Below are positions 4,385 through 36,916 of a DNA stretch of 64,000 bases, piece by piece. A model generated the notes under the pieces. That model saw nothing but the letters and a program-made list of their open reading frames with translations, was not told the DNA's origin and did no database searches. This DNA is from Arthrobacter sp. APC 3897. Lineage in GTDB: Bacteria; Actinomycetota; Actinomycetes; Actinomycetales; Micrococcaceae. Position numbers and translations under genes: made by a program. The stretch lies in contig NZ_JASDDG010000014.1 of NCBI RefSeq assembly GCF_030407495.1, forward strand, positions 1-64,000, in the 5' to 3' direction. Each line of letters starts with the position of its first letter. Within the stretch, counting starts at the first letter, position 1.

Positions 4385-6132
4385 CGGGACTGATGCTCCG
4401 GGTTGGCAGTCCTGACCGGAGAGACAGGATCCACCAGCGCTACGGAGCCGGTCGCCACATCCGCCAGAGCAAGTTCGGCCGCCGAGGGGGCAGGCGAAGT
4501 ATCCTGCCTGCCCGGAGCTGCAGAAGCTGCCGCCTTCTTCAGCTGGACGGCATTCTGGCGTCCCAGGCTGGCGTTGGGAATGAAGATGACCGCCAGCAGC
4601 GTGACAACGGCCAGCGGCACGCTGTACAGGAAGACCGATCCGACGCCGACGCCGTAAGCAGTCTCGACCAGCACGGCGATGGCATCAGGCAGTTCGGACA
4701 CCTTGGGGATGGATCCGCTGCCCAGGGCTGCGGCTGCCGCAGCCTGGTCAGCCGGCGCCAAGGCGCTAATGCCGTCCTTGATCTCGGAGGCAACAATGGT
4801 TCCCAGCACCGAACCCAGCACGGAAACACCCACGGTGCCGCCGAGGCTGCGGAAGAAGGTCACCGCGCTGGTAGCCACACCGAGGTTCTTCACCTCAATG
4901 GAGTTCTGCACCACGAGCACCAGGTTCTGCATGAGCATGCCCAGGCCTGCACCCAGAACAGCCATGTAGATGCCCACCAGCACCAGGTTGGTGTCATAGG
5001 CCAGGGTGCCCAGCAGGACGGAACCAAGGACGGTGAGCACAGCCCCGGAAATCATCACAGCCTTCCACTTGCCGGTGCGGCTGATGATCGTTCCGAACAG
5101 CGTGGAGGAGATCAGCAGGCCAGCCATCATGGGGATGGTCAGCAGGCCGGACTCGGTGGGCGTTGCCCCGCGGGCCAGCTGCATGTACTGGGCCAGGAAT
5201 ACGGAGGTGCCGAACATGGACACTCCCACGGAAATGCTGGCCACGACGGCAAGCGTGAAGGTGCGGTTCTTGAACATGGACAGCGGAATGATGGGTTCCG
5301 GGGACTTGAATTCCACCAGGACGGCAGCGATCAGCAGCACGGCGGATCCGGCGACCATCAGCCAGGAAGCCAGGGAGGCCCAGCCGAACTGGTTGCCCGC
5401 CAGCGTCACCCAGATCATCAGCAGCGAGACGCCGCCGGCAATCAGGACGGCACCCAAATAGTCAATGTGGACCTTGCGCTTGGCGTGCTTGGGCAGGTGC
5501 AGGGTCACCTGCAGCAGGATGATGGCAACCACCGCCACCGGCAGGGCAATGAAGAAGTTCCAGCGCCATCCGAAGGCATCCGTGACAACCCCGCCCAGCA
5601 GCGGTCCGCCCACTGTGCCCACCGCCATCACGGCGCCGAAGAGTCCGGCGTACTTTCCGCGGTCGCGCGGGCTGATGATGTCAGCCATGATGATCTGGCT
5701 CAGCGCGGCAAGACCACCGGCGCCCAGACCCTGCAGCACGCGGAAGACAATCAGCGTGTTGGTGTCCTGGGAGAAGCCGGCCAGAGCCGAGCCGAGCACA
5801 AAGATGCCCAGTGCGAGCTGGATCAGCAGCTTGCGGTTGAACAGGTCGGCAAACTTGCCCCACAACGGCGTGGACACCGTTGTGGCCAGCAGCGTACCGG
5901 TCACCACCCAGGTGTAGGCGGACTGGTTGCCGTCAAGGTCCGAGATGATCAGCGGCAGGGAGGTAGAGACCACCGTGCCCGCCAGAATGGAGACAAACAT
6001 GCCAAGGAGCAGGCCGGAAAGGGCTTCCAGCACCTGCTTATGAGTCATGGTCCCGTCCGGGGAGGCGGCCCGCTTGGGTGCCTTGGCCTGCTTCTCGGAC
6101 TTCTTTTTGGGTGGACGTGCTTCGGGGGACAT
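4381..6132 (-). CDS. MFS multidrug efflux transporter, DHA2 (14-helix, EmrB/QacA type)
   Basis: A 583-residue drug:proton antiporter of the DHA2 branch. It has a basic lysine-rich N-terminal tail, about fourteen transmembrane helices, a motif-A loop (GKFADLFNRK, about residue 105) and a motif-C-like antiporter helix (GAVMAVGTVGGPLLGG). The C-terminal tail is long and hydrophilic. The start ATG at 6132 has AGGAG 7 nt upstream. It is the first gene of a two-gene operon with the overlapping marR gene. The promoter region carries TAGTTGA-N6-TCAACTA overlapping a -10-like box, so MarR autorepression is expected. Substrate unknown. Confidence 0.95.
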   Translation of the reverse strand: MSPEARPPKKKSEKQAKAPKRAASPDGTMTHKQVLEALSGLLLGMFVSILAGTVVSTSLPLIISDLDGNQSAYTWVVTGTLLATTVSTPLWGKFADLFNRKLLIQLALGIFVLGSALAGFSQDTNTLIVFRVLQGLGAGGLAALSQIIMADIISPRDRGKYAGLFGAVMAVGTVGGPLLGGVVTDAFGWRWNFFIALPVAVVAIILLQVTLHLPKHAKRKVHIDYLGAVLIAGGVSLLMIWVTLAGNQFGWASLASWLMVAGSAVLLIAAVLVEFKSPEPIIPLSMFKNRTFTLAVVASISVGVSMFGTSVFLAQYMQLARGATPTESGLLTIPMMAGLLISSTLFGTIISRTGKWKAVMISGAVLTVLGSVLLGTLAYDTNLVLVGIYMAVLGAGLGMLMQNLVLVVQNSIEVKNLGVATSAVTFFRSLGGTVGVSVLGSVLGTIVASEIKDGISALAPADQAAAAAALGSGSIPKVSELPDAIAVLVETAYGVGVGSVFLYSVPLAVVTLLAVIFIPNASLGRQNAVQLKKAAASAAPGRQDTSPAPSAAELALADVATGSVALVDPVSPVRTANPEHQSR

Positions 6133-6192: not shown

Positions 6193-6347
6193 GTTTCGTG
6201 GCGCATCACACACACTGACGGCTGCGCCGGGCTCAGGTGACGTCGCCGTGAAGGTGTATGACGACCCGTGACGCACGGAGACGCCCCTGCAGTTAGAAAC
6301 GGTCATCACCGGGCAGTACGCGGATCCATGGGCTAGCTTTTCCTTAA

Positions 6348-6440
6348 CCATCCCGAGCGGCCGAGAGACCTGGATCGACGACGCCGCAGCAACCCTCCCC
6401 GCCCAGCAGCGGGGAACGGTGCTACTGCCAGGACCGATGG
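6348..6440 (+). promoter_or_regulatory. SAM riboswitch aptamer (SAM-I / SAM-I-IV class)
   Basis: The stretch carries the conserved core of S-adenosylmethionine riboswitches in order: GAGCGGCCGAGAGACC, GACGCCGCAGCAACC, then GGTGCTACTGCCAGGACC and GATGGA. P1 can form between CCATC (6348-6352) and GATGG (6436-6440). A P3-type hairpin lies near CTGG..., and a CCCC/GGGG hairpin at 6397-6414 follows GCAGCAACC. It sits 108 nt upstream of the importer operon on the same strand. I cannot settle S-box SAM-I versus the actinobacterial SAM-I/IV variant by eye; a covariance model would. Expected role: with SAM bound, downstream expression falls. Confidence 0.88.
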
Positions 6441-6441
6441 A

Positions 6442-6526
6442 GAAGCTGCGCGCTTTCGTTGGTCAGCTTCGCCCTGCCCCGGCACGGCGAAGCTGCCTCC
6501 GGCGAACCTGCGCCGCCCTCCGCCGG
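6442..6526 (+). terminator. Riboswitch expression platform: competing hairpins
   Basis: CAGCTTC (6463-6469) can pair with the upstream GAAGCTG (6442-6448), next to aptamer P1, or with the downstream GAAGCTG in GGCGAAGCTG (6486-6495). The downstream pairing extends to a 10-bp stem CAGCTTCGCC/GGCGAAGCTG, a terminator-like hairpin without a U-run. A further GC hairpin CCGGCG/CGCCGG lies at 6499-6525. The arrangement fits an antiterminator/terminator switch, common without U-tracts in high-GC genomes. Confidence 0.55.
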
Positions 6527-6547
6527 GCGATGATTCAGGAGCCTGAC

Positions 6548-8203
6548 GTGAGCACAACAAGACCTTTGAGAGCATTTCCCCCTCTACCCCGTATCCTCGC
6601 CGGCCTCGCGGCAGGAGCCACCCTGGCCACTGCCCTTGCAGGCTGCGGCTGGCAGGCCGCAGCCGGCGGCAGCGACACCTTTGTTTTTGCCACCGGTAAG
6701 GACATCTCCTGCTTGGATCCCCATGTGAACGGCGACATGCCGCAGGCATCCATTGCCGCGAATTATCTGGATTCCCTCGTGTCGCAGGACAGCGGGGGCG
6801 CCATCCGTCCCTGGCTGGCCACCGCGTGGTCCGTGTCCGGTGACGGCCTCACTTACACCTTCACGGTGCGCGACGACGTCTGGTTCACTGACGGGACACA
6901 ACTCACCGCCGAAGCGGTTAAGGCAAACCTGGACCACATGGTTGATCCGGACACACAGTCCGGCACCGCCGGCGGGTACCTCAAACCCTACGAGTCCACG
7001 CACGTGGTGGATCCGACCACCGCCGTCGTGACCCTGAACCGCCCCTATGCCGCCTTCCTGGAAGTACTTGCACAGCCCTTCCTCGGCATCCAGTCCCCGG
7101 CGGCCCTGAAGCGGCCGCAGGTGGAAAACTGCCACTCGCCGGTGGGATCCGGCCCCTTTAAGATCCTTGACTACGTTCCGCAGTCCAAGGTCACCCTGGT
7201 CCGCAACGAAGACTACAACTCGGCCCCGCCCTACGCGCAGCATGACGGTCCGGCGCATATCGAGAAGGTCGAATGGCGCATTGTTCCCGAAGACTCCACC
7301 CGGTACGGCATGCTGCGGGCAGGCCAGGTGGATGCCCTGGACCTGATGCCGGCGGTCCATTTCGCCGAAGCGGAAGCAGACAGCAACGTGGAACTGACCC
7401 TGCGTGACCGGCCCGGAAACCCTACCAACCTCATCCTCAACACCACCCGCGCTCCCTTTGACGATCTCAGCGTCCGTAAGGCGTTCCTGCACAGTGCTTA
7501 TGTGGACGCAGGCATCAACAGCGTCTACTTCGGCACCGTGACCCGGGCCGGCGGGCCGCTCAGCTCCACCACCGGTTTCTACTCCCCCGATTTTGAGCAC
7601 GTGTATGATCCGGACCCCGCCGAAGCAGCACGCCTGCTGGACGATGCCGGCTGGACCGAGCATGACGCCGAAGGGTACCGGGTGAGAGACGGCGAGCGCC
7701 TGACCGTTCACTTCCCGTACACCCCCGGCGCCTGGCCCGCTGCGCACCAGGCACTGGTCACCCAAATCCAGGCGACCGCAAAACAGGCCGGCTTCGAGGT
7801 GCTGATCGAGAACGGCGATGCAGCAACCGTCAGCGGACTCGGCAACACCTTTGACTACGATCTCCGCGCAGATTACTGGAATACCAACACTGCCGATGTG
7901 CTGCGCATTGTCTTCTCCTCTGAATACACAAAGTCAGCCGGCTTTGTTGCCAACGGGTCGGGCTTTCAGAACCCCGGGCTGGACTCAATCCTGAACGCAG
8001 CGCTTGCCACTGACGATGCCGCCGTCCGGAAGGACCTTTACCACCGGGCCCAGCGGATCGTCAGCGACAACGCCCTCCAGCTGCCGCTCTATAACCAGGC
8101 CAGCCACGTGGCGCTGCGCAGTGACCGGTGGGCAAACCTCACCCTTGAACCGAGCCTTTCCCTCCCCTACCTCTACGACGTCACGGCGGTGGATCCCCAA
8201 TGA
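6548..8203 (+). CDS. ABC importer substrate-binding lipoprotein (SBP family 5, dipeptide/nickel type)
   Basis: A 551-residue extracellular binding protein. It begins with an arginine-bearing signal peptide and lipobox LAGC (Cys33), then the family-5 fold with typical stretches such as DDVWFTDGTQLTAEAVKANLDHM and the closing region before YDV. I place the start at GTG 6548 (AGGAG at 6537-6541) rather than at upstream codons, which lie within the riboswitch leader. It delivers ligand to the permeases encoded by the next two genes (its stop overlaps the next start by 4 bp). SAM-riboswitch control and a DszC-like enzyme in the operon suggest a sulfur-containing ligand. Family-5 proteins also bind peptides, opines and metals, so the ligand is inferred. 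Confidence 0.93.
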   Translation: MSTTRPLRAFPPLPRILAGLAAGATLATALAGCGWQAAAGGSDTFVFATGKDISCLDPHVNGDMPQASIAANYLDSLVSQDSGGAIRPWLATAWSVSGDGLTYTFTVRDDVWFTDGTQLTAEAVKANLDHMVDPDTQSGTAGGYLKPYESTHVVDPTTAVVTLNRPYAAFLEVLAQPFLGIQSPAALKRPQVENCHSPVGSGPFKILDYVPQSKVTLVRNEDYNSAPPYAQHDGPAHIEKVEWRIVPEDSTRYGMLRAGQVDALDLMPAVHFAEAEADSNVELTLRDRPGNPTNLILNTTRAPFDDLSVRKAFLHSAYVDAGINSVYFGTVTRAGGPLSSTTGFYSPDFEHVYDPDPAEAARLLDDAGWTEHDAEGYRVRDGERLTVHFPYTPGAWPAAHQALVTQIQATAKQAGFEVLIENGDAATVSGLGNTFDYDLRADYWNTNTADVLRIVFSSEYTKSAGFVANGSGFQNPGLDSILNAALATDDAAVRKDLYHRAQRIVSDNALQLPLYNQASHVALRSDRWANLTLEPSLSLPYLYDVTAVDPQ

Positions 8204-9201
8204 GCACCCAGTCCCTTGATTCCCTCAACACGGCACCGCGCACAACGGTATCCCCCGGCATGACCGGCCGACTGCTGGTCAGACGGGCCGCCGGCAGCAT
8301 CTTTGTCCTCTGGGCGGCCCTCACCCTTACGTTCTTTGTCCTGCACCTCACCCCCGGCGATCCGGTAACGGCGATCCTCGGGGGTGCCGGATCCTCCCCG
8401 TCCGCCGAGACGGTAGCAGCCGTTAAGGCCGAGTACGGCCTGGACCAACCCGTTGTCCTGCAGTACCTCACCTATCTGGGCAACCTGATCACCGGGGACT
8501 TTGGCGTGTCCTACATTTTCAAGGTTCCCGTCACCGAAGTCCTCGGCCCGCAGATCCTTCCCACCCTGCAGCTCTCCGGCCTTGCCCTGACCTTCGCCTG
8601 GACCATCGCGCTGGCCTTCACCCTCCTCACGGTGGGACGCGGCCGCCTGCTCGACGGCGCCGGCCGGGCCCTGGAAGTGTTCTTCGCTTCGCTTCCCCCG
8701 TTCTGGGTGGGCATCATGCTGGCGGTTGTCTTCGCCGTCATCCTGGGCTGGTTCCCGGTCGCCGGAGACGACGGCTTCGCGTCGCTGGTCCTGCCGGCGC
8801 TCTCACTGGCCCTCCCCCTGTCCGGGTTCATCGCCCAGGTCACCCGGTCCTCCTTTGAAGAGGCACTGGCCCAGCCGTTCATCCTCAGCGCCCGCGCCCG
8901 GGGACTGAGTGACTCCGCTGTGCGGCTAACACATGCCCTGCGGCACGCCATCCTGCCCGGACTCACGCTTTCCGCTTGGGCCGTGGGCTCACTGGTCAGT
9001 TCCGCCGTCGTTGCCGAGATCATTTTTGCCCGCGCCGGACTGGGGCGTTCGCTTGTGGACGCCATCATCAACCGCGACATGCCGGTAACCCTGGCCGTGG
9101 TCTTCATCATTGCCGCCGTCTACATCATCGTGAACCTCGCCGTGGATCTCCTTTACCGCGTGGTGGATCCCCGCACCAGCCCGACAGGAAGTGCAGCATG
9201 A
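8200..9201 (+). CDS. ABC importer permease, DppB-like
   Basis: A 333-residue inner-membrane permease of the dipeptide/nickel class with about six helices. The conserved LHLTPGDP motif follows the first helix (about residue 50). The EAA loop that contacts the ATPase is around EEALAQPFILSARARGL and HALRHAILP. Its ATG overlaps the stop of the binding-protein gene (ATGA), and its own stop overlaps the next permease start in the same way, so the operon is tightly coupled. The N-terminus is about 25 residues longer than in typical DppB. It should form the translocation channel with the next gene product. Confidence 0.94.
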   Translation: MSTQSLDSLNTAPRTTVSPGMTGRLLVRRAAGSIFVLWAALTLTFFVLHLTPGDPVTAILGGAGSSPSAETVAAVKAEYGLDQPVVLQYLTYLGNLITGDFGVSYIFKVPVTEVLGPQILPTLQLSGLALTFAWTIALAFTLLTVGRGRLLDGAGRALEVFFASLPPFWVGIMLAVVFAVILGWFPVAGDDGFASLVLPALSLALPLSGFIAQVTRSSFEEALAQPFILSARARGLSDSAVRLTHALRHAILPGLTLSAWAVGSLVSSAVVAEIIFARAGLGRSLVDAIINRDMPVTLAVVFIIAAVYIIVNLAVDLLYRVVDPRTSPTGSAA

Positions 9202-10091
9202 GCACCCTTGCCAGCCCCGCCCCGGCGGCACAGAAACCATCAAAAGCACTGCCCGCCGGGAGCGGTGCGCGCAGCATCCGGCTGGTCCGCAGCACCCCCG
9301 CCGGCGTGTGGGTGGCCGGCGCACTTTTGCTCTTCCTGGTGCTCGCCGCCGTCGCTCCATCCCTGTTCCTGCGGCAGGACCCCTACGAGATTGACCCGGC
9401 CAACGCCTTCCAGGCGCCGGGCGCCGCCCAACTGTTCGGCACCGACCAAAACGGCCGCGACATCTTTTCCCGGGTGATCGCCGGGACCGGACAGTCATTA
9501 CTTCTGGGGTTGGCTGCCACAGCCATCGGACTGCTCCTGGGCGGGGCACTGGGCATTACCGCCGGAGTGTCCGGCAAACGGGTCGACTCGGCAATCTGCC
9601 GCTTCGTGGAAATCCTCTTTGCTTTCCCAGGCCTGCTGCTGGCCCTGATCGTGATCGCAGTGTCCGGCACCGGCGTCGTCAGCGCCGCTGTTGCCGTGGG
9701 AATCGGATCCGCCCCCGGCTACGCGCGGATGCTCCGCACCCAAACGCTGCAGGTGGTGGCCGCTCCCTATGTGGAAACAGCCCTCGCCCTGGGCCGGCCA
9801 CGCTCCCACATCCTGCGGCACACCATCATCCCCAATGTGGCGCGCCCGCTGTTTGTCCTCGTCACGCTCGGAATCGGCCAGTCCATTGTCTGGGCGTCCT
9901 CCCTCAGTTTCCTCGGACTGGGGGCACAGCCGCCGGCAGCCGAATGGGGCGCAATGCTCGCCGACGGGCGCAACTACCTACAGATCGCCTGGTGGATTGC
10001 CGCGTTCCCCGGACTGTTCATCACTCTCGCAGCCCTGACCACCACGGTGGCGGGCCATCATCTCCAGCGCCGACTCGAAGCAGAGGTCTGA
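9198..10091 (+). CDS. ABC importer permease, DppC-like
   Basis: A 297-residue permease, partner of the DppB-like protein. It shows the DppC-type hallmark LFGTDQNGRDIFSRVI after the first helix, then five further helices and an EAA loop around YVETALALGRPRSHILRHTIIPN. The reading frame extends further upstream, but ATG 9198 overlaps the previous stop (ATGA), and similarity starts after it. A short 2-nt gap leads to the ATPase gene. Confidence 0.94.
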   Translation: MSTLASPAPAAQKPSKALPAGSGARSIRLVRSTPAGVWVAGALLLFLVLAAVAPSLFLRQDPYEIDPANAFQAPGAAQLFGTDQNGRDIFSRVIAGTGQSLLLGLAATAIGLLLGGALGITAGVSGKRVDSAICRFVEILFAFPGLLLALIVIAVSGTGVVSAAVAVGIGSAPGYARMLRTQTLQVVAAPYVETALALGRPRSHILRHTIIPNVARPLFVLVTLGIGQSIVWASSLSFLGLGAQPPAAEWGAMLADGRNYLQIAWWIAAFPGLFITLAALTTTVAGHHLQRRLEAEV

Positions 10092-10093
10092 CC

Positions 10094-11791
10094 ATGACAC
10101 CGAATACCCCGCAGCGGCCGCTGCTCGCGATGGACAACCTGACAGTCTCCTTTTCCACCCCGCGGGGAACCGTTGACGTTGTCCGCGGTGTTTCGCTGGC
10201 CCTCGCCCCCGGAAAGGCGCTGGCCCTGGTGGGTGAATCGGGTTCCGGCAAAACCGTCACGGCCCGCACGCTCGCGGGCCTCAACGCTCCCAACGCCCTG
10301 GTGTCAGCGGACCGCCTGGAAGTCCTGGGGCACAACGCAGCCCGGCTTTCCGAACGTCAATGGCGCAGGCTGCGGGGCCGGCAGATCGGCTACGTGCTCC
10401 AGGATGCCCTGGTGTCCCTTGACCCGCTCCGCACGGTGGGCCAGGAAGTTGATGAGGCACTGCGCGCCCACGGCGTGCACGGACGGGATGAACGCCGGAA
10501 GCGGGTCCTTGCCGCCCTGCGTGCCGCCGGCATCACCGATCCCGTGGTCCGGGCCGGGCAGCGCTCCGGCGAACTCTCCGGCGGGCTGCGGCAGCGCGCG
10601 CTGATTGCGCAGGCCACCGTCCTCAACCCGCAGCTGGTGATTGCCGATGAATCAACCACCGCACTGGATGCCACCGTGCAGGCCCAGATCCTTGATTTGC
10701 TGGAGGGGCTGAAGGAACAGGGGCGCGGGTTGATCTTCATCTCCCATGACCTCGCCGTTGTCAGCCGGCTGGCCGATGAAATTGCCGTCATGCAGCACGG
10801 ACGGATTGTCGAGTCAGGGCGGACGGCTGAAGTGCTGGGCAACCCGCGCCACGAGTACACCCAACAGCTGATCGATGCCGTCCCCTCCGGCCGCGGCAGG
10901 GGCACCCGGCTCTCCGCCCTTCCCCCGCTGGCTGCATCCGCACGCCCGGCACGGCCCTCGGAGTTTTCCCCGGATGCTCCGGCGCTCGAAGCCAGCCATC
11001 TCGTCAAGGCCTACACGGCTCCGGACGGCACCTCCCGCACAGTGGTCGATGATGTCTCCTTTACCCTGCCGGCCGGCAAAACCCTGGGCATTGTGGGCGA
11101 GTCCGGATCGGGGAAGTCCACGACGGCGCGCATCGTGCTGGGACTCACGGAACCGGATGCTGGGACGGTCCGGCTCGGCGGACTGCCGTGGGCGGGGAAC
11201 CTGCAGGGAGTGCCGGTGCCCGAAGAGATGCGGCGTCCGCACCGGCGGGACATCCAGTTGGTGAACCAGGACCCGCTGAGCTCCTTCGACCCGCGCTTCA
11301 GTGTGGAACGGGTCATTACCGATGCCTTGGCAGCCGGGGGCCCCGGTACGCCCGGTGAACGCCGGGACCGCTCTGCGGAACTCCTAGGGCAGGTGGGGCT
11401 GCCCCTGGACCTGATTCACCGGCAGCCGCTCACCCTTTCCGGCGGGCAGCGCCAGCGCGTGGCGATCGCCCGCGCCCTTGCGCTCGAGCCCCGTGTGCTG
11501 CTGCTCGATGAACCGGTGTCCGCGCTGGATGTGTCCATCCAGGCGCAGGTCCTGGATCTCCTCGCGGACCTGCAGGAACAGCTCGGGCTGAGCTACCTGT
11601 TCATCAGCCACGACCTCGGCGTGATCCACCATGTCAGCGACGACGTCCTGGTAATGAAGGACGGCCGCGTCATGGAATCCGGCAGCGCCGCTTCGCTTTT
11701 CGCCTTTCCGGCAACCAGTTACACCAGAGCCCTGCTCGCTGCCGTTCCCCGGATGCCTGCGCGCCGCCCCGCTACCGACCTGCACGCATGA
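10094..11791 (+). CDS. ABC importer ATPase, fused DppD-DppF type (two NBDs)
   Basis: A 565-residue cytoplasmic protein carrying both nucleotide-binding domains in one chain. NBD1 has Walker A GESGSGKT (about residue 48), signature LSGGLRQRALIAQ and Walker B VIADESTTALD. NBD2 has Walker A GESGSGKST (about 337), signature LSGGQRQRVAIAR and Walker B LLLDEPVSALD. Both belong to the oligopeptide/nickel subfamily, where the domains are often separate genes. The start ATG at 10094 is two bases after the permease stop. It powers import by the SBP-DppB-DppC complex of this operon. NBD1 has a slightly degenerate signature (GGLRQR), so the two sites may not be equivalent. Confidence 0.95.
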   Translation: MTPNTPQRPLLAMDNLTVSFSTPRGTVDVVRGVSLALAPGKALALVGESGSGKTVTARTLAGLNAPNALVSADRLEVLGHNAARLSERQWRRLRGRQIGYVLQDALVSLDPLRTVGQEVDEALRAHGVHGRDERRKRVLAALRAAGITDPVVRAGQRSGELSGGLRQRALIAQATVLNPQLVIADESTTALDATVQAQILDLLEGLKEQGRGLIFISHDLAVVSRLADEIAVMQHGRIVESGRTAEVLGNPRHEYTQQLIDAVPSGRGRGTRLSALPPLAASARPARPSEFSPDAPALEASHLVKAYTAPDGTSRTVVDDVSFTLPAGKTLGIVGESGSGKSTTARIVLGLTEPDAGTVRLGGLPWAGNLQGVPVPEEMRRPHRRDIQLVNQDPLSSFDPRFSVERVITDALAAGGPGTPGERRDRSAELLGQVGLPLDLIHRQPLTLSGGQRQRVAIARALALEPRVLLLDEPVSALDVSIQAQVLDLLADLQEQLGLSYLFISHDLGVIHHVSDDVLVMKDGRVMESGSAASLFAFPATSYTRALLAAVPRMPARRPATDLHA

Positions 11792-11825
11792 TTTCCGTTA
11801 GTACCCTCCCGAAAGGACCCCTGTC

Positions 11826-13043
11826 ATGACCATCGAGATTCCGGCTTCCGCCGCCCCCGGCTATGCCGATGTGGCGGCCCGGTTCCGTCCGCTGTTTGCC
11901 GACATCGCGCGGGGCGCAGCCAGGCGGGAAAGCGGACGCATCCTGCTGCACGAGGAAATCCGCCTGCTGGCTGAAGCCGGCTTCACGTCCCTGCGGGTTC
12001 CCGCTGGGCTTGGCGGCGGAGGGGTGTCCGCCCCGGACTTTTTCCGGCTGCTCATTGAACTGGCGGCGGCTGAATCAAACCTGGCCCAGGCCCTGCGCTG
12101 CCACATCGCCTTCGTGGAAGACCTGCTCTACTCCGGAAACATAACATGGCTTCGCCGGATCGCGGACGGCGCGGTGGTGGGCAATGCCTGGACCGAAAGC
12201 GGACCGGTCCCCGTAGGCGGGGTCAGCACCACTATCACGGCGGACGGTGCCGGGTACCGGGTTAACGGCACCAAGTACTACACGACGGGCAGCCTGTACG
12301 CGGACTGGATCCAGACGGGGGCCCGCACCGCCGAGGGCGTGGACGTCATCGCCCTGGTCCACCGCGATACTCCGGGCGTTGAGGTGGCCGATGACTGGGA
12401 CGGTTTTGGCCAGCGGCTGACCGCGAGCGGAACGTCGGTCTTCACCAATGTGTTCGTCCCTGCTGCGGATGTCATCACGGAGGCTGCTCATCCCCCGTAC
12501 AGCACCGGCGTGTACCAGCTCATCCATGTGGCAACCCTTGCCGGCATAGCCCGCGCGGCCCTCGCGGATGTGGTCTGCGAAGTGCGTCAACGGACCAGGA
12601 CCTTCAGCAACGGAAACGGCACCCGGCCCAGCGCGGACATCCAGGTGCAGCAGGTGGTGGGGGAAGTGTCGGCGCTGGCCTTCTCTGCCGAAGCTGCTTC
12701 CCTCCGGGTCGCTGATCTGGTTCAGGAAGCCTATGAGGCTCGGCACCAACCATCGAGCGAACGCGCAGAAGCCGCCGTCACGGCCGTGGAGTTCGCCTCG
12801 TCCCAGGCGCAGATTGTGGTGACCGAGCAGGTCCAGCGGGCTGCTTCCCTTCTGTTCAACGCCCTGGGCGCATCTTCCACCAGTCAGGAGCTGCAGCTGG
12901 ACCGGCATTGGCGCAATGCCCGGACCATTTCCTCGCACAACCCGGTCATCTACAAGTCACGGATCGTAGGCGACTGGGAAATCAACGGTGCGGTGCCGGA
13001 CTTCGTGTGGCGGGCAGGTGAGGCTCCTGCCGCTGTCCGGTGA
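11826..13043 (+). CDS. Acyl-CoA-dehydrogenase-fold flavoprotein, DszC/SfnB-like (sulfur acquisition)
   Basis: A 405-residue protein of the acyl-CoA dehydrogenase superfamily. The N-terminal helical domain contains LAEAGFTSLRVPAGLGG, a central beta domain contains YYTTGSLYADW, and the C-terminus contains LDRHWRNARTISSHNPVIYK (about residues 358-377). That last motif is characteristic of the DszC/SfnB branch, whose members are reduced-flavin-dependent monooxygenases of sulfones and thiophenes or related desulfurisation enzymes. The start ATG at 11826 has AAAGGA upstream. As last gene of the SAM-riboswitch operon it probably attacks the imported organosulfur compound. No flavin reductase is encoded nearby, so FMNH2 must come from elsewhere. 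Substrate unknown. Confidence 0.87.
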   Translation: MTIEIPASAAPGYADVAARFRPLFADIARGAARRESGRILLHEEIRLLAEAGFTSLRVPAGLGGGGVSAPDFFRLLIELAAAESNLAQALRCHIAFVEDLLYSGNITWLRRIADGAVVGNAWTESGPVPVGGVSTTITADGAGYRVNGTKYYTTGSLYADWIQTGARTAEGVDVIALVHRDTPGVEVADDWDGFGQRLTASGTSVFTNVFVPAADVITEAAHPPYSTGVYQLIHVATLAGIARAALADVVCEVRQRTRTFSNGNGTRPSADIQVQQVVGEVSALAFSAEAASLRVADLVQEAYEARHQPSSERAEAAVTAVEFASSQAQIVVTEQVQRAASLLFNALGASSTSQELQLDRHWRNARTISSHNPVIYKSRIVGDWEINGAVPDFVWRAGEAPAAVR

Positions 13044-13068
13044 CTGGGTGCCCCCGGGAACGCAGGTA

Positions 13069-13108
13069 CCAACGACGACGGCGGCAGCCCCGCCGCCGCC
13101 GTCGTTGG
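13069..13108. terminator. Bidirectional terminator hairpin
   Basis: CCAACGACGACGGCGGC (13069-13085) pairs with GCCGCCGCCGTCGTTGG (13092-13108) with one mismatch. It ends the sulfur operon (plus) and the convergent nitroreductase gene (minus). A third GCCGCCGTCGTT copy follows at 13114-13125. Confidence 0.75.
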
Positions 13109-32627: not shown

Positions 32628-33509
32628 TCAGTCGCGCAGCGTTGCGCCTACTTCGGCTTCAACCTCGGCCACCACCTCGCTGTGGCTGCCCATCGCCTCC
32701 AGCTCCTGGGCCAGCTCTTCAAGCTCGGCACCACCGGCCATCTGTGCGGTCAGCTGGTCCAGGGTGACGTCCGACTTCTTGTAGTAGCCGATCGACCGGC
32801 CGCGCTTGAGCAGCAGGAAGCGGTCTCCCACCGGATAGGCGTGGTGCGGGTTGTGGGTAATGAAGACAACGCCCAGTCCGCGGTCCCGGGCCTGCAGGAT
32901 GTAGCGCAGGACCACGCCCGACTGCTTGACGCCCAGGGCTGCCGTCGGCTCGTCCAGGATGAGCACCTTCGCCCCGAAATACACGGCCCGGGCGATGGCA
33001 ACGCACTGGCGCTCGCCGCCGGAGAGCTGGCCCACGGGCTGCTCCACATCGCGCAGGTCGATGCCCATCTCCTGCAGTTCCCTTTTGGTGATCTCCTTCA
33101 TCCGGGCAACGTCAAGCCGCCTGAACGGTCCGGAGCCCGTGGTCAGCTCCGATCCCAGGAAGAAATTGCGCCAGACCGGCATCAGGGATACCACGGCCAG
33201 GTCCTGGTAGACGGCGGCAATACCCAAATCCAGTGCGGAGCGGGGAGACGTGAAACGGCGTTCCTCCCCCAGCGCGGTGAAGGTTCCCTCATCATGCGGA
33301 TGCAGCCCGGCGATGATCTTAATCAGGGTGGATTTGCCCGCCCCGTTGTCGCCCAGCACGCAGGTGACCCTGCCGGCCTCCACGTCCATGGTGACATCGT
33401 GCAGTGCGATCACGTTGCCGTAATGCTTGCCCACTTTGTCGAGCCGCAGCAGGTGCGGCGGCGGGGCTGTGTCCGCACCGCCGCCGGCCTGGCTTTTCGT
33501 GCTGTCCAT
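32628..33509 (-). CDS. Sugar ABC importer ATPase (single-NBD, ribose/inositol class)
   Basis: A 293-residue ATPase with Walker [10 protein letters not shown] (about residues 54-62), Q-loop AAVYQDLAV, signature [15 protein letters not shown] and Walker [12 protein letters not shown]. Sugar importers of this CUT2 class often have a double NBD; this one has a single NBD, as in the inositol/fructose-type subgroup with FRRLDVARM. Third gene of an SBP-permease-ATPase operon (15-bp gap after the permease). It energises uptake of a monosaccharide or polyol. Confidence 0.93.
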
Positions 33510-33524: not shown

Positions 33525-34571
33525 CTAGCTTTGTTCGGCCCGGCGTTTGACCACCATGTTCACCATGGTCGCCAGCAGCAGCATGAGGCCCAGGAAGAAC
33601 TTGAACCAGTCCGGATTCCATTCCGCGTACACGATGCCCTTGTTGGCCATGCCGAAGATGAAGGCCCCGATGGCACCGCCAATGGCAGAGCCGTATCCGC
33701 CCGTCAGCAGGCATCCGCCAATCACGGCCGCAATGATGTAGAGGAACTCGTTGCCGATGCCTTCACCGGACTGCACGGTCGAGAAGGCGAACAGGTTGTG
33801 CATGCCAAGGATCCAGGCGCAGAAACCCACGCCCATAAAGAGGCCAATCTTGGTTTTCACCACGGGAACGCCGACGGCGCGGGCAGCGTAGGCGTCACCG
33901 CCGGACGCGAAAATCCAGTTTCCCACGCGTGTGCGCAGCAGGATCCAGGAAGCCACGGCAACCAGGGCAATCCAGATGAAGACGGTGATCCGGACCTCCA
34001 CACCGCCCAGGGTGAGGGAGGAAGCGAACACTGCCTTGGCTGAATCGAAGCCGTCCATGTCCGAGATGGACGGGGAGGATACGCTTCCGCCGATCGCCCG
34101 GGTCAGGCCAAGATTCAGGCCGGTCAGCATGAGGAACGTGGCGAGGGTGACGATGAAGGACGGCAGTTTGGTTTTGACCAGGATCCATCCGTTGATGAAC
34201 CCGACGGTGAGCGACAAGACCAGCGCCAGCGCCACGCCCACCCACACGTTCATCGAGAAGTACCAGCTGAAGAGCGAGGCCATGAGGGCCGAGCTGATGA
34301 CGGCAACACCGGTGGACAGATCGAACTCACCACCGATCATCAGCAGTGACACCCCCACCGCCATGATGCCGATGGTGGAGGCGCCGTACAGGACGGTGGC
34401 GATGGATCCGGGCTGCAGGAATACCGGCGCAACCACTGAGAAGAAGGCGAACAGGGCAACGGCGCCCACCAGTGCGCCGATTTCGGGCCGGCCCAGCAGT
34501 TTGGCCATTCTGCTTTTGGCTGCAACTCTTTCGTCTGCCGGTGCGGTGGGGGTGACTGTCTCAGCCGTCAT
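33525..34571 (-). CDS. Sugar ABC importer permease (CUT2, RbsC-like)
   Basis: A 348-residue membrane protein with about eight to ten helices. It has the CUT2 permease signature GGEFDLSTGVAVISSALMA, and the conserved RVGNWIFASGGDAYAARAVGV contacts the ATPase. It starts at ATG 34571, 58 bp after the binding-protein stop, and is followed closely by the ATPase gene. Partner of both. Confidence 0.94.
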   Translation of the reverse strand: MTAETVTPTAPADERVAAKSRMAKLLGRPEIGALVGAVALFAFFSVVAPVFLQPGSIATVLYGASTIGIMAVGVSLLMIGGEFDLSTGVAVISSALMASLFSWYFSMNVWVGVALALVLSLTVGFINGWILVKTKLPSFIVTLATFLMLTGLNLGLTRAIGGSVSSPSISDMDGFDSAKAVFASSLTLGGVEVRITVFIWIALVAVASWILLRTRVGNWIFASGGDAYAARAVGVPVVKTKIGLFMGVGFCAWILGMHNLFAFSTVQSGEGIGNEFLYIIAAVIGGCLLTGGYGSAIGGAIGAFIFGMANKGIVYAEWNPDWFKFFLGLMLLLATMVNMVVKRRAEQS

Positions 34572-34629: not shown

Positions 34630-35628
34630 TCAGCGGATGCCGTCGGCGGCGAAGGCTGCAACCGATTCGGCGTTCGAGGAGTCGATGATGGTGGGTCCGG
34701 TGAGCACCGGCTGGCCGCCGCCGAGCTCGAATCCTCCGCGGCTGTTCTGCCAGAGAGCGTCAACCGCCCCGTAGCCCTGCAGCCAGGGCTGCTGGTCAAC
34801 GGTGAAGATGATTTCCCCGTCAGCAATGCGCTTGGCAAGGTCGGGGTTGAGGTCGAAGGAGGCCACCTTGGCGTCGCTGCCGGATGACTCCACGGACTTG
34901 AGAATGGTCAGTGTGTACGGCGCGCCGAGGCCGACGACGACGTCGGCATCCGCTGTTGCCTGCAGTTTGGCTGTCACGGTGGATTCGACCTGGGTCATGT
35001 CCGTCCCCTGGACGTACAGGATTTCGGTGCCGGGGACCTTGGACTTGACGCCGGCACAGCGGCTTTCATGTCCAACGTTGCCCTGCTCGTGAATGACGCA
35101 GATCGGATGCGTGTAACCGTCCGCCGCCAGCTGCTGCCCCACTGCTTCTCCGGCAAGCTGCTCGTTGGAACCGAAGTGGGTGAACGCGCCGAGCTCGACG
35201 GAGCGGTCCTCTCCCGAGTTCAGGCTTACCACCGGAATGCCGGCGTCTTCCGCCTTCCGGAGCGCCGAGGCAACGGCGTCCGGCTTTGCGAGGGTGACGG
35301 CAATGCCGTCCACGCCCTGCTCCACTGCCTGCTCAATCAGCTGGGCCTGCCGCCCGCCTTCAGGATCCGCGCTGTACAACAGTTCAACGTTGTCCTTTTG
35401 CGACGCTTCCTCAGCGCCCTTTCGCACGATGTCCCAGAAGGTATCTCCCGGGCCGCCATGGGTAATCAAAGCGATTTTGATGCGGTCAGTGCCGGCAACG
35501 GCACCTCCGCCGTCGCCGCTGTCCGCTTCGGGGGTACGTCCGCCGGAACTGGAACATCCCGCCAGGGCCAGCGCAGGAACCAGCAGCACCGATGCTGCCA
35601 GTTTGCGCAGGGAAAAATTGAGTGACAC
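34630..35628 (-). CDS. Sugar ABC importer binding lipoprotein (periplasmic-binding family 4; ribose/myo-inositol-like)
   Basis: A 332-residue lipoprotein with signal peptide and lipobox LAGC (Cys25), a Ser/Gly linker, then the ribose-binding fold: ALITHGGPGDTFWDIVRKGAE, DGIAVTLAKPDA, NSGEDRS and FDLNPDLAKRI. The THGGPGDTFW motif is typical of inositol/sugar SBPs of actinobacteria, so myo-inositol or a pentose is a guess. The start is GTG 35628 with AAAGGAG; the longer frame covers the promoter. First gene of the operon, behind a near-consensus promoter and beside a (broken) GntR regulator gene. Confidence 0.92.
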   Translation of the reverse strand: MSLNFSLRKLAASVLLVPALALAGCSSSGGRTPEADSGDGGGAVAGTDRIKIALITHGGPGDTFWDIVRKGAEEASQKDNVELLYSADPEGGRQAQLIEQAVEQGVDGIAVTLAKPDAVASALRKAEDAGIPVVSLNSGEDRSVELGAFTHFGSNEQLAGEAVGQQLAADGYTHPICVIHEQGNVGHESRCAGVKSKVPGTEILYVQGTDMTQVESTVTAKLQATADADVVVGLGAPYTLTILKSVESSGSDAKVASFDLNPDLAKRIADGEIIFTVDQQPWLQGYGAVDALWQNSRGGFELGGGQPVLTGPTIIDSSNAESVAAFAADGIR

Positions 35629-35716
35629 TAAAGTCTCCTTTGTCTTCACGGCCCGGCACAATAGCCGGCAGCCGGCAGCCGGAGGGGCCCCGCCCCGCTT
35701 CGGCACTTGGAAGTCC

Positions 35717-35759
35717 AATATATCGACAAGCATGACCATGTCAATCATTTGTCAGGACA
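35717..35759 (-). promoter_or_regulatory. Promoter of the sugar ABC operon with GntR-type operators
   Basis: On the minus strand TTGACA (35744-35739) and TATATT (35722-35717) stand 16 bp apart: a near-consensus promoter, 89 bp before the SBP start. TGAC-CAT-GTCA (35733-35743) overlaps the -35 box. TGTC-AG-GACA (35750-35759) lies just upstream and resembles HutC-type GntR sites. Together they suggest repression by the divergent GntR protein. Confidence 0.6.
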
Positions 35760-35932
35760 TAGCCGCGTTTTCCGGCTGCTGATTGTGAGTGACATTGGCC
35801 GTAAATCGAAGCCGCTCCTACGGAAGGAGTGACCACTGTTACACTCAACAGCAAATGTTTTTGTCCTTACATGATGCGGTGAAGACCGAAGACCGGCGGA
35901 GGTGCAGCAATGAGTCCGGAGCTCAGTATTCC

Positions 35933-35946
35933 GATCGACGATCGAC
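35933..35946. repeat. 7-bp tandem duplication GATCGAC x2 within the gntR 5' coding region
   Basis: GATCGAC occurs twice head-to-tail. Reading from ATG 35910 (GGAGGTG ribosome site) gives MSPELSIPID, then runs out of frame. Removing one copy joins this to RSSPVPLYHQVVQGIEAA, the classical start of a HutC/GntR domain. The duplication therefore breaks the gene. Confidence 0.85.
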
Positions 35947-35976
35947 AGGTCCTCCCCCGTACCCCTGTACCACCAG

Positions 35977-36657
35977 GTGGTCCAGGGAATTGAAGCAGCC
36001 ATCCACAGCGGCGTCCTTGAATTCGGTTCCCGGCTGGACAACGAGATTGAGCTTGCCGGCAAGCTGAACCTGTCCCGGCCCACCATGCGCAAGGCAATGG
36101 ATGAATTGGTCCGTGCAGGGCTGCTTGTCCGCAAGCGCGGTGTCGGCACCCAGGTGGTATCAAACCGCGTCCGCCGCCACCTGGAACTGACGAGCCTGTT
36201 CGATGATCTGCAGCAATCCGGACAAAATCCCGCCACTGAGGTGCTCGATTTCCGGCACAGCCAGACCGCGACGGGCGTCGCCGAAACGCTGGAGCTGCCT
36301 GCGGGGACGCGCATCTACCATTTCATCCGGCTGCGCACCGTTGGCGGCAAGCCGCTGGCACTCATGGAGAACTGGGTGCGCGATGACATCACGGAAATCA
36401 CCGAGGGAGCCCTCCGGGGGCAGGGGCTCTACCAGCTGCTGCGGGATGCCGGAGTGAACTTCCGGCTGGCCACCCAGCGCATCGGGGCCGCTGTGGCCGA
36501 CCAACGGCAGGCGGAACTGCTGGAGGTGGCGGCCGGTGACGCCCTGGTGACCATGGAACGCACCGCCGTGGACGATGCCGGACGCACCGTGGAAACCGGA
36601 CGCCACGTGTATCGTGCCGATTCCTACAGCTTCGAGATGACGCTGGTTCAACGCTAG
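35977..36657 (+). CDS. GntR/HutC-family regulator, 5' end frameshifted
   Basis: From GTG 35977 the frame gives 226 residues: most of a GntR winged helix (IEAAIHSGVLEFGSRLDNE, LSRPTMRKAMDELVRAGLLVRKRGVGT) and a complete UTRA effector domain ending FEMTLVQR. The natural start is very likely ATG 35910, which has an excellent ribosome site. That frame is broken by the GATCGAC duplication at 35933-35946 and stops after 27 codons. The product from GTG 35977 would lack about 20 N-terminal residues, including the first part of helix 1 (PLYHQ), so DNA binding may be impaired. If repaired the protein is 246 residues. It is divergent from the sugar ABC operon, which it should regulate. A pseudogene, a phase-variable gene or an assembly error are all possible. 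Confidence 0.8.
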   Translation: MVQGIEAAIHSGVLEFGSRLDNEIELAGKLNLSRPTMRKAMDELVRAGLLVRKRGVGTQVVSNRVRRHLELTSLFDDLQQSGQNPATEVLDFRHSQTATGVAETLELPAGTRIYHFIRLRTVGGKPLALMENWVRDDITEITEGALRGQGLYQLLRDAGVNFRLATQRIGAAVADQRQAELLEVAAGDALVTMERTAVDDAGRTVETGRHVYRADSYSFEMTLVQR

Positions 36658-36761
36658 GGGTGCGCGCCCCGGGACAGAGATGCGGATGCCGGAAAAATCG
36701 TGGGTCTATCCGCCGGGTTCGGCGCATCGAAGTTATCCGGTGCGGTCCGGCAACGAAAAAA

Positions 36762-36831: not shown

Positions 36832-36916
36832 TGGTGCCCGAAGTGGGACTCGAACCCACACACCTCTCGATACTGCATTTTGAGTGCAGCGCGTCTGCCA
36901 ATTCCGCCATTCGGGC
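36832..36916 (-). tRNA. tRNA-Leu (anticodon CAA)
   Basis: An 85-nt class II tRNA with encoded CCA. The acceptor stem pairs GCCCGAA (36916-36910) with TTCGGGC, followed by A and CCA. The anticodon stem CTGCA/TGCAG encloses CTCAAAA, giving anticodon CAA, which reads UUG. The long variable arm (TATCGAGAGGTGT region) is typical of leucine tRNAs, and the T-loop GTTCGAGTC is intact. The gene has its own terminator. I see no integrase or duplicated 3' end that would mark it as an attachment site. Confidence 0.96.

Follow-up and report, generated by a model that had tools for sequence, protein, structure and literature searches.

A probably inactivated and orphaned IolR-type regulator in an apparently decaying inositol module of Arthrobacter sp. 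APC 3897

Introduction

Gene clusters for inositol catabolism have been surveyed across bacteria (PMC9430895), and in Corynebacterium glutamicum the myo-inositol genes are repressed by IolR, a regulator of the GntR type. In that organism the inositol transporter IolT1 is derepressed when IolR is lost (PMC12298647), and IolR is probably subject to negative autoregulation (PMC8634428). Myo-inositol importers of the CUT2 class of ABC systems are known as well, namely ACEI_1806 (PDB 4ru1), a verified myo-inositol transporter according to PMC10747050, and the mycobacterial MSMEI_4538-4540.

Here we describe a locus of Arthrobacter sp. APC 3897 that resembles these systems in part. The DNA analysed, hereafter the window, is a stretch of 64,000 nucleotides (contig NZ_JASDDG010000014.1, positions 1 to 64,000 of the forward strand; assembly GCF_030407495.1). 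Its regulator gene can be likened to C. glutamicum iolR by gene neighbourhood; however, the gene is broken and the catabolic operon has gone. Like the clusters of the survey (PMC9430895), that of the close relative G024 contains iolB, iolC, iolD, an iolE-like gene and a dehydrogenase-like gene, whereas the window has two scraps of iolB, an importer and a frameshifted regulator. Moreover, the importer differs from ACEI_1806 and MSMEI_4538-4540 in that inositol is assigned to it from sequence and in that it stands without a catabolic operon. The locus is not described in the available excerpts of the literature on 7-bp phase variation, IolR, inositol in Arthrobacter, regulator decay or 4RU1.

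Results and discussion

Genomes and loci compared

The window, which is the start of contig 6, belongs to a 3.79-Mb draft genome in 60 contigs, the one genome of its species in the comparison. It was compared with genomes at two levels: 29 genomes of the genus, among them that of the window, ten of which carry the regulator at E<=1e-40, and 395 genomes of the family, sampled from a larger group and searched at E<=1e-80 for the regulator and at E<=1e-40 for iolB. Alignments of the gene itself cover 89 orthologous loci, which amount to 86 distinct iolR sequences with three genomes counted twice. The 80 named loci among them are the best-ranking ones out of 183 that are related. In a tree of the regulator the window pairs with G024 at a support of 94/92, just under the mark set by the program, and the deeper forks remain open. 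The nearest relatives are G024 and G007. Features of the window are collected in Table 1.

Table 1. Positions of the regulator, importer, predicted control sites and iol remnants in the window.
Feature	Coordinates	Strand	Remarks
ABC ATP-binding protein gene	32628..33509	-	Open frame
ABC permease gene	33525..34571	-	Open frame
Substrate-binding lipoprotein gene	34630..35628	-	CUT2-type importer, probably for myo-inositol; open frame
Importer promoter	35717..35744	-	Sigma-70-like, TTGACA-16-TATATT; operator immediately 5' of the -35 box
Predicted conserved operator, importer	35749..35760	-	ATGTCCTGACAA; adjoins the importer promoter
Predicted conserved operator, regulator	35861..35872	+	TTGTCCTTACAT; just 3' of the TACACT box, ahead of the regulator
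Short ORF	35910..35993	+	27 codons, from the normal start of the regulator
7-bp tandem duplication	35932..35946	+	None at the same site in 89 orthologous loci
Body of the IolR-type GntR regulator	35941..36657	+	Out of frame; HTH and UTRA; first usable start GTG 35977
iolB scrap 1	36686..36723	+	First 38 nt of iolB; 33/38 identical to G024 iolB
iolB scrap 2	36724..36745	+	Interior of iolB, about codons 118-125; 18/22 identical to G024, the last 15 exactly
Deletion junction	36745..36746		About 9.3 kb of G024 absent (rest of iolB to iolC, with two operators)
tRNA-Leu (CAA)	36832..36916	-	Its flank is the right boundary of the deleted block

The regulator, the importer and their predicted operators

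The regulator frame that still stands in the window carries the Pfam domains GntR (8.7e-15) and UTRA (4.2e-32), that is, a GntR winged helix-turn-helix (HTH) followed by a C-terminal UTRA domain as in regulators of the HutC type. NCBIfam models for HutC and PhnF match under their cut-offs, and an assignment to either protein proper was rejected. In four relatives the next gene starts 17-20 bases past the regulator, and in the two that were scanned it is iolB, with TIGR04378 over its cut-off; moreover, an iolB match was found in 80/80 named loci. Because iolB and myo-inositol catabolic genes adjoin it in relatives, the window gene is, by its gene neighbourhood, an IolR-type regulator. There is no second copy in the genome, where a search at E<=1e-8 returned a single paralogue of 27% identity.

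The importer genes run divergently from the regulator. We took the start of the binding protein at GTG 35628, the longest ORF beginning at 35748. All three genes match their G024 counterparts in one frame, in the case of the ATPase over residues 1-282 of 300. With PDB 4ru1 the binding protein has a match of 1.4e-79 that spans residues 42-332, and the NCBIfam model of rhizopine-binding proteins matches it at 1.1e-53, which is under the cut-off of that model. A homologue of an inositol-binding protein thus stands here with a cognate permease and ATPase, as in CUT2 importers of myo-inositol, and the substrate is probably myo-inositol. This gives a probable substrate to a regulator and an importer that had been labelled only 'sugar' from sequence alone.

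The strict operator pattern WTGTCCTDWCAW occurs twice in the window's genome, both times between regulator and importer, and its reversed control pattern was found nowhere in that genome. The shorter core TGTCCTGACA is present in 7 places; the published motif of C. glutamicum IolR, KGWCHTRACA, would fit it. Among the orthologous loci, 85/89 have WTGTCCTNNCA 86-148 bases before the PLYHQ segment of the regulator, and it is missing from that range in L013, L027, L035 and L082. A second site, further upstream and beside the importer, is shared by the window, G024 and G007. If either orientation is counted, a site 160-330 bases upstream is present in 38 of the 89 loci, many of which do not have the importer adjacent to the regulator. 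The iol region adds two more strict sites in G024 and one more in G007. The predicted operator is therefore placed at the regulator's own promoter, at that of the importer and at those of the iol genes, a distribution that would be in keeping with a regulator of the IolR type.

The two sites of the window differ in position. The one before the regulator follows a -10-like TACACT box (35840-35845), which would be the usual position for autorepression and can be set beside the probable negative autoregulation of C. glutamicum IolR (PMC8634428). The one at the importer promoter lies directly upstream of the -35 box, and repression of the importer is for this reason not certain. The first-pass annotation had described the gene as a GntR regulator tied to the sugar importer; both parts of that description hold, the first through the GntR and UTRA domains and the second through the shared predicted operator pattern.

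Deletion of the iol catabolic operon beside the regulator

Alignment of the window to G024 breaks off at 36723 and resumes at 36742, with approximately 9.6 kb lying between these points in G024. From the regulator to the tRNA-Leu gene, G024 encodes iolB, an MFS sugar porter, a TIM-barrel protein, an inositol-dehydrogenase-like protein, an iolE-like gene, iolD, a Cgl0159-like gene and iolC. The matches of iolB, iolD and iolC are over the cut-offs of their models, those of iolE and the dehydrogenase are under, and the latter names are approximate. Around the scraps that remain, the window lacks about 315 bases within iolB and about 9.3 kb after scrap 2. Compared without gaps, the right flank gives 25/59 identities owing to a small offset, and a gapped alignment shows the homology.

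Elsewhere in the genome the search covered iolB, iolD, iolE and iolG. No match to iolB was found at E<=0.001 in the window's genome, which is rated 100% complete. The best iolD match in that genome scores 197 bits, where the gene of G024 reaches 809, and the corresponding figures are 36.6 against 128.5 for iolE and 102 against 195 bits for the iolG model. Even the genes of G024 fall short of the curated cut-offs for iolE and iolG, and both models separate poorly; dehydrogenase-like genes do persist in the genome of the window. Deletion has removed the iol catabolic operon beside the regulator in the window's lineage, where remnants of pathway genes adjoin the regulator and intact copies are found in relatives.

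Two further differences were seen. In L099, the locus of G007, the interval from the regulator to the flank of the tRNA-Leu gene is about 4 kb longer than in G024, with the extra sequence lying among the iol genes. A second difference in gene content lies near the locus: positions 6211-13071 of the window (about 6.9 kb) align to G024 and have no match of more than 150 bases in the G007 stretch compared.

The loss is rare among genomes that carry the regulator. Within the genus, iolB is over its cut-off in 9/29 genomes, with weaker matches under the cut-off in five more, and these nine are exactly the other nine genomes with the regulator at E<=1e-40. In the family sample the regulator was detected in 170 of the 395 genomes and iolB in 185 (184 over the cut-off): both in 169, the regulator only in 1, iolB only in 16 and neither in 209. 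The sole genome with a regulator and no iolB is that of the window. Open-frame lengths in this sample were taken from stop to stop (247 for the window), a measure that is blind to the start, and statements about intact starts rest on the 89 loci.

A tandem duplication breaks the frame of the regulator

ATG 35910 is preceded by GGAGG at a distance of 7 nt, and its frame comprises 27 codons before a frameshift brings it to TGA at 35991-35993. Within it GATCGAC occurs twice in tandem (35933-35946), and the run with a 7-bp period extends over 35932-35946. The regulator frame proper is open from 35914 to TAG at 36655-36657 and reads ..IDRSSPVPLYHQVVQGIE..; no in-frame ATG, GTG or TTG precedes GTG 35977, which is itself inside the HTH, and the window therefore has no complete regulator ORF with a start before this domain. 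The ribosome site at ATG 35910 and the breaking of its frame by the GATCGAC duplication, both put forward in the first-pass annotation, are confirmed.

Taken by itself, a 7-bp tandem pair is unremarkable. The 92.7-kb contig contains 7 exact pairs against 8.7 expected (the mean of ten first-order Markov sequences). It is the comparison with relatives that marks the duplication as a real event, because it is absent from all 89 orthologous loci (0/89; 86 distinct sequences). G024 and G007 align to the window with a gap of exactly 7 bases. Moreover, 88 of the 89 loci have an in-frame start no more than 30 codons upstream. The sole exception is L027, where iolR runs at its 5' end into unrelated DNA around 5990-6010; this locus, from Sinomonas, lacks a start within 30 codons upstream and yet is followed by iolB, as a rearrangement or a misassembly might leave it. 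L028 and L039 have 7-bp pairs elsewhere near the start of the gene and keep the start. Relatives that share the two copies and a conserved start at GTG 35977 would have spoken against a break, as the first-pass annotation had noted, and none were found among the 89 loci. A conserved start at this GTG was likewise rejected: the orthologues begin upstream, and IDRSSPVPLYHQ, or a sequence close to it, is preserved in them.

Translation in the window might still begin at GTG 35977 and yield a shortened working regulator, perhaps through re-initiation behind the short ORF, whose stop lies 14 nt beyond this codon. The frame from there retains UTRA in full and the greater part of the HTH, and no amino-acid change is assigned to the window branch in the first 64 residues (HTH). 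However, no ribosome-binding sequence is apparent by eye before GTG 35977, and the product would be without the IDRSSPVPLYHQ segment that orthologues keep with small variations. We consider such a protein very unlikely.

The first-pass annotation had further suggested an ON/OFF switch, in which slippage of the 7-bp unit would toggle the regulator and thereby the importer. In common with phase-variable genes that contain tandem repeats (e.g. the promoter repeats of PMC12817950), the window has a repeat, here in coding sequence and with a unit length not divisible by three. The exact pair stands close to the 5' end of the gene, a usual position for a frame switch, the remainder of the gene is largely intact, and three of the seven 7-bp pairs of the contig cluster at this place. 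Unlike the copy-number-switched genes of that source (PMC12817950), the window has two units only, and its relatives show no variation, not one of the 89 loci having a second copy. The tract is not beyond chance, such pairs being no commoner in the contig than expected, and with the neighbouring iol operon gone there is little left to switch. Because the operon beside the regulator has been lost, simple inactivation is the simpler reading and explains more, and a switch appears highly improbable.

The three clustered pairs begin at 35663, 35881 and 35932, within 269 bases of one another. Calculated post hoc, seven random positions cluster in this way in about 0.0009 of trials. G024 shares most of the pair at 35663.

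Assembly quality and age of the break

A draft assembly in 60 contigs could contain an error of 7 bp, in which case there would be one true unit and an intact regulator next to an iol operon that is still deleted. Frame breaks that resemble sequencing errors do occur in the same module of another genome, G023. A total of 53 ORFs of G024 have a match in the window's contig and five of these are covered over less than 85%. Two of the five have one match in one frame with window stops inside, one of 497 codons with stops at 86 and 104 and one of 184 codons with a stop at 41 (numbering from 0), seemingly before the true starts; we take them, unproved, to be mis-called starts in G024. Of the other three, one lies by the tRNA gene, one opposite a TetR-like-looking gene and one shows 58% identity. 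Within the compared part of the contig we found no further clear frame break in the middle of a gene, and the idea of a genome with many broken genes was rejected, although the screen is weak for N-terminal shifts, the regulator itself having passed it at 0.92. Against an error, moreover, the break sits in the sole iolB-less genome among 170 with the regulator, a comparison in which this genome was chosen for its break and only some of the others were screened for one. An assembly or sequencing error is in our view quite unlikely.

In G023 (L131, 120-13783) the genes for the binding protein, the ATPase, iolE and iolD are each in two pieces and iolR reads through. These breaks are probably indel errors in a single-contig assembly that is rated 94% complete.

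For the regulator, dN/dS is 0.161 between the window and G024, 0.142 between the window and G007 and 0.097 between G024 and G007. Because the rest of the gene is so little decayed (0.16 to G024), its inactivation looks recent on the time scale of the divergence from G024. Nonsynonymous and synonymous changes on the branches number 14:14 for the window and 8:19 for G024, with 15 unassigned sites dropped; over a slightly longer stretch they are 14:14 and 8:20, again without unassigned sites, a difference that is not significant (p = 0.17). The direction is that expected of relaxed selection, which at this p value we do not accept for the regulator. The importer genes show no difference between branches (p 0.34 to 0.80).

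Probable decay of the module

Taken together, these data indicate that the gene is very probably a recently inactivated and orphaned iolR in a decaying inositol module, and that the locus represents the decay of a pathway and not a switch. Deletion of the iol operon in this Arthrobacter lineage would have removed the need for the regulator, and then, or about then, the orphaned gene would have been frame-broken by the 7-bp duplication. The regulator is most likely null. The inositol-type importer may have been freed from its control, with uptake rising or falling both possible; constitutive uptake is plausible. Recent knockout was among the alternatives of the first-pass annotation and is the nearest to this reading, which would have inactivation follow a loss of need; the assembly error offered with it keeps the small probability given above. 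Among the points that weigh against this reading are that the GTG 35977 start could yield a shortened protein and that the iolR of L027 looks broken at its 5' end while iolB is still present.

The event is real but ordinary, the decay of an orphaned regulator along with the loss of its pathway, and it is instructive as an intermediate. A regulated catabolic module is seen midway through loss, with enzymes deleted, a regulator that is broken yet hardly decayed, and the importer and both operators retained. It illustrates with a concrete case in what order such modules may come apart. It also advises caution, in that a frameshift at a tandem repeat should be checked against the loss of neighbouring genes before it is called a switch.

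Bacteria of this kind use inositol for mycothiol and phosphatidylinositol. With catabolism deleted and inositol-responsive control lost, the importer could have been re-purposed to supply inositol for biosynthesis and not as food, the frameshift having been selected for freeing it, a possibility that we regard as unlikely. Bearing on it is G014, which also retains the importer without the regulator and iolB.

The G014 locus (L130, 5273-8128) encodes the same importer, with 72% identity in the binding protein, 85% in the permease and 79% in the ATPase. Neither iolR, iolB nor the operator pattern is present in the 16 kb around it, and a gene for a BCCT transporter adjoins it. This genome, which is of the same genus, thus joins that of the window in having the importer and no iol module.
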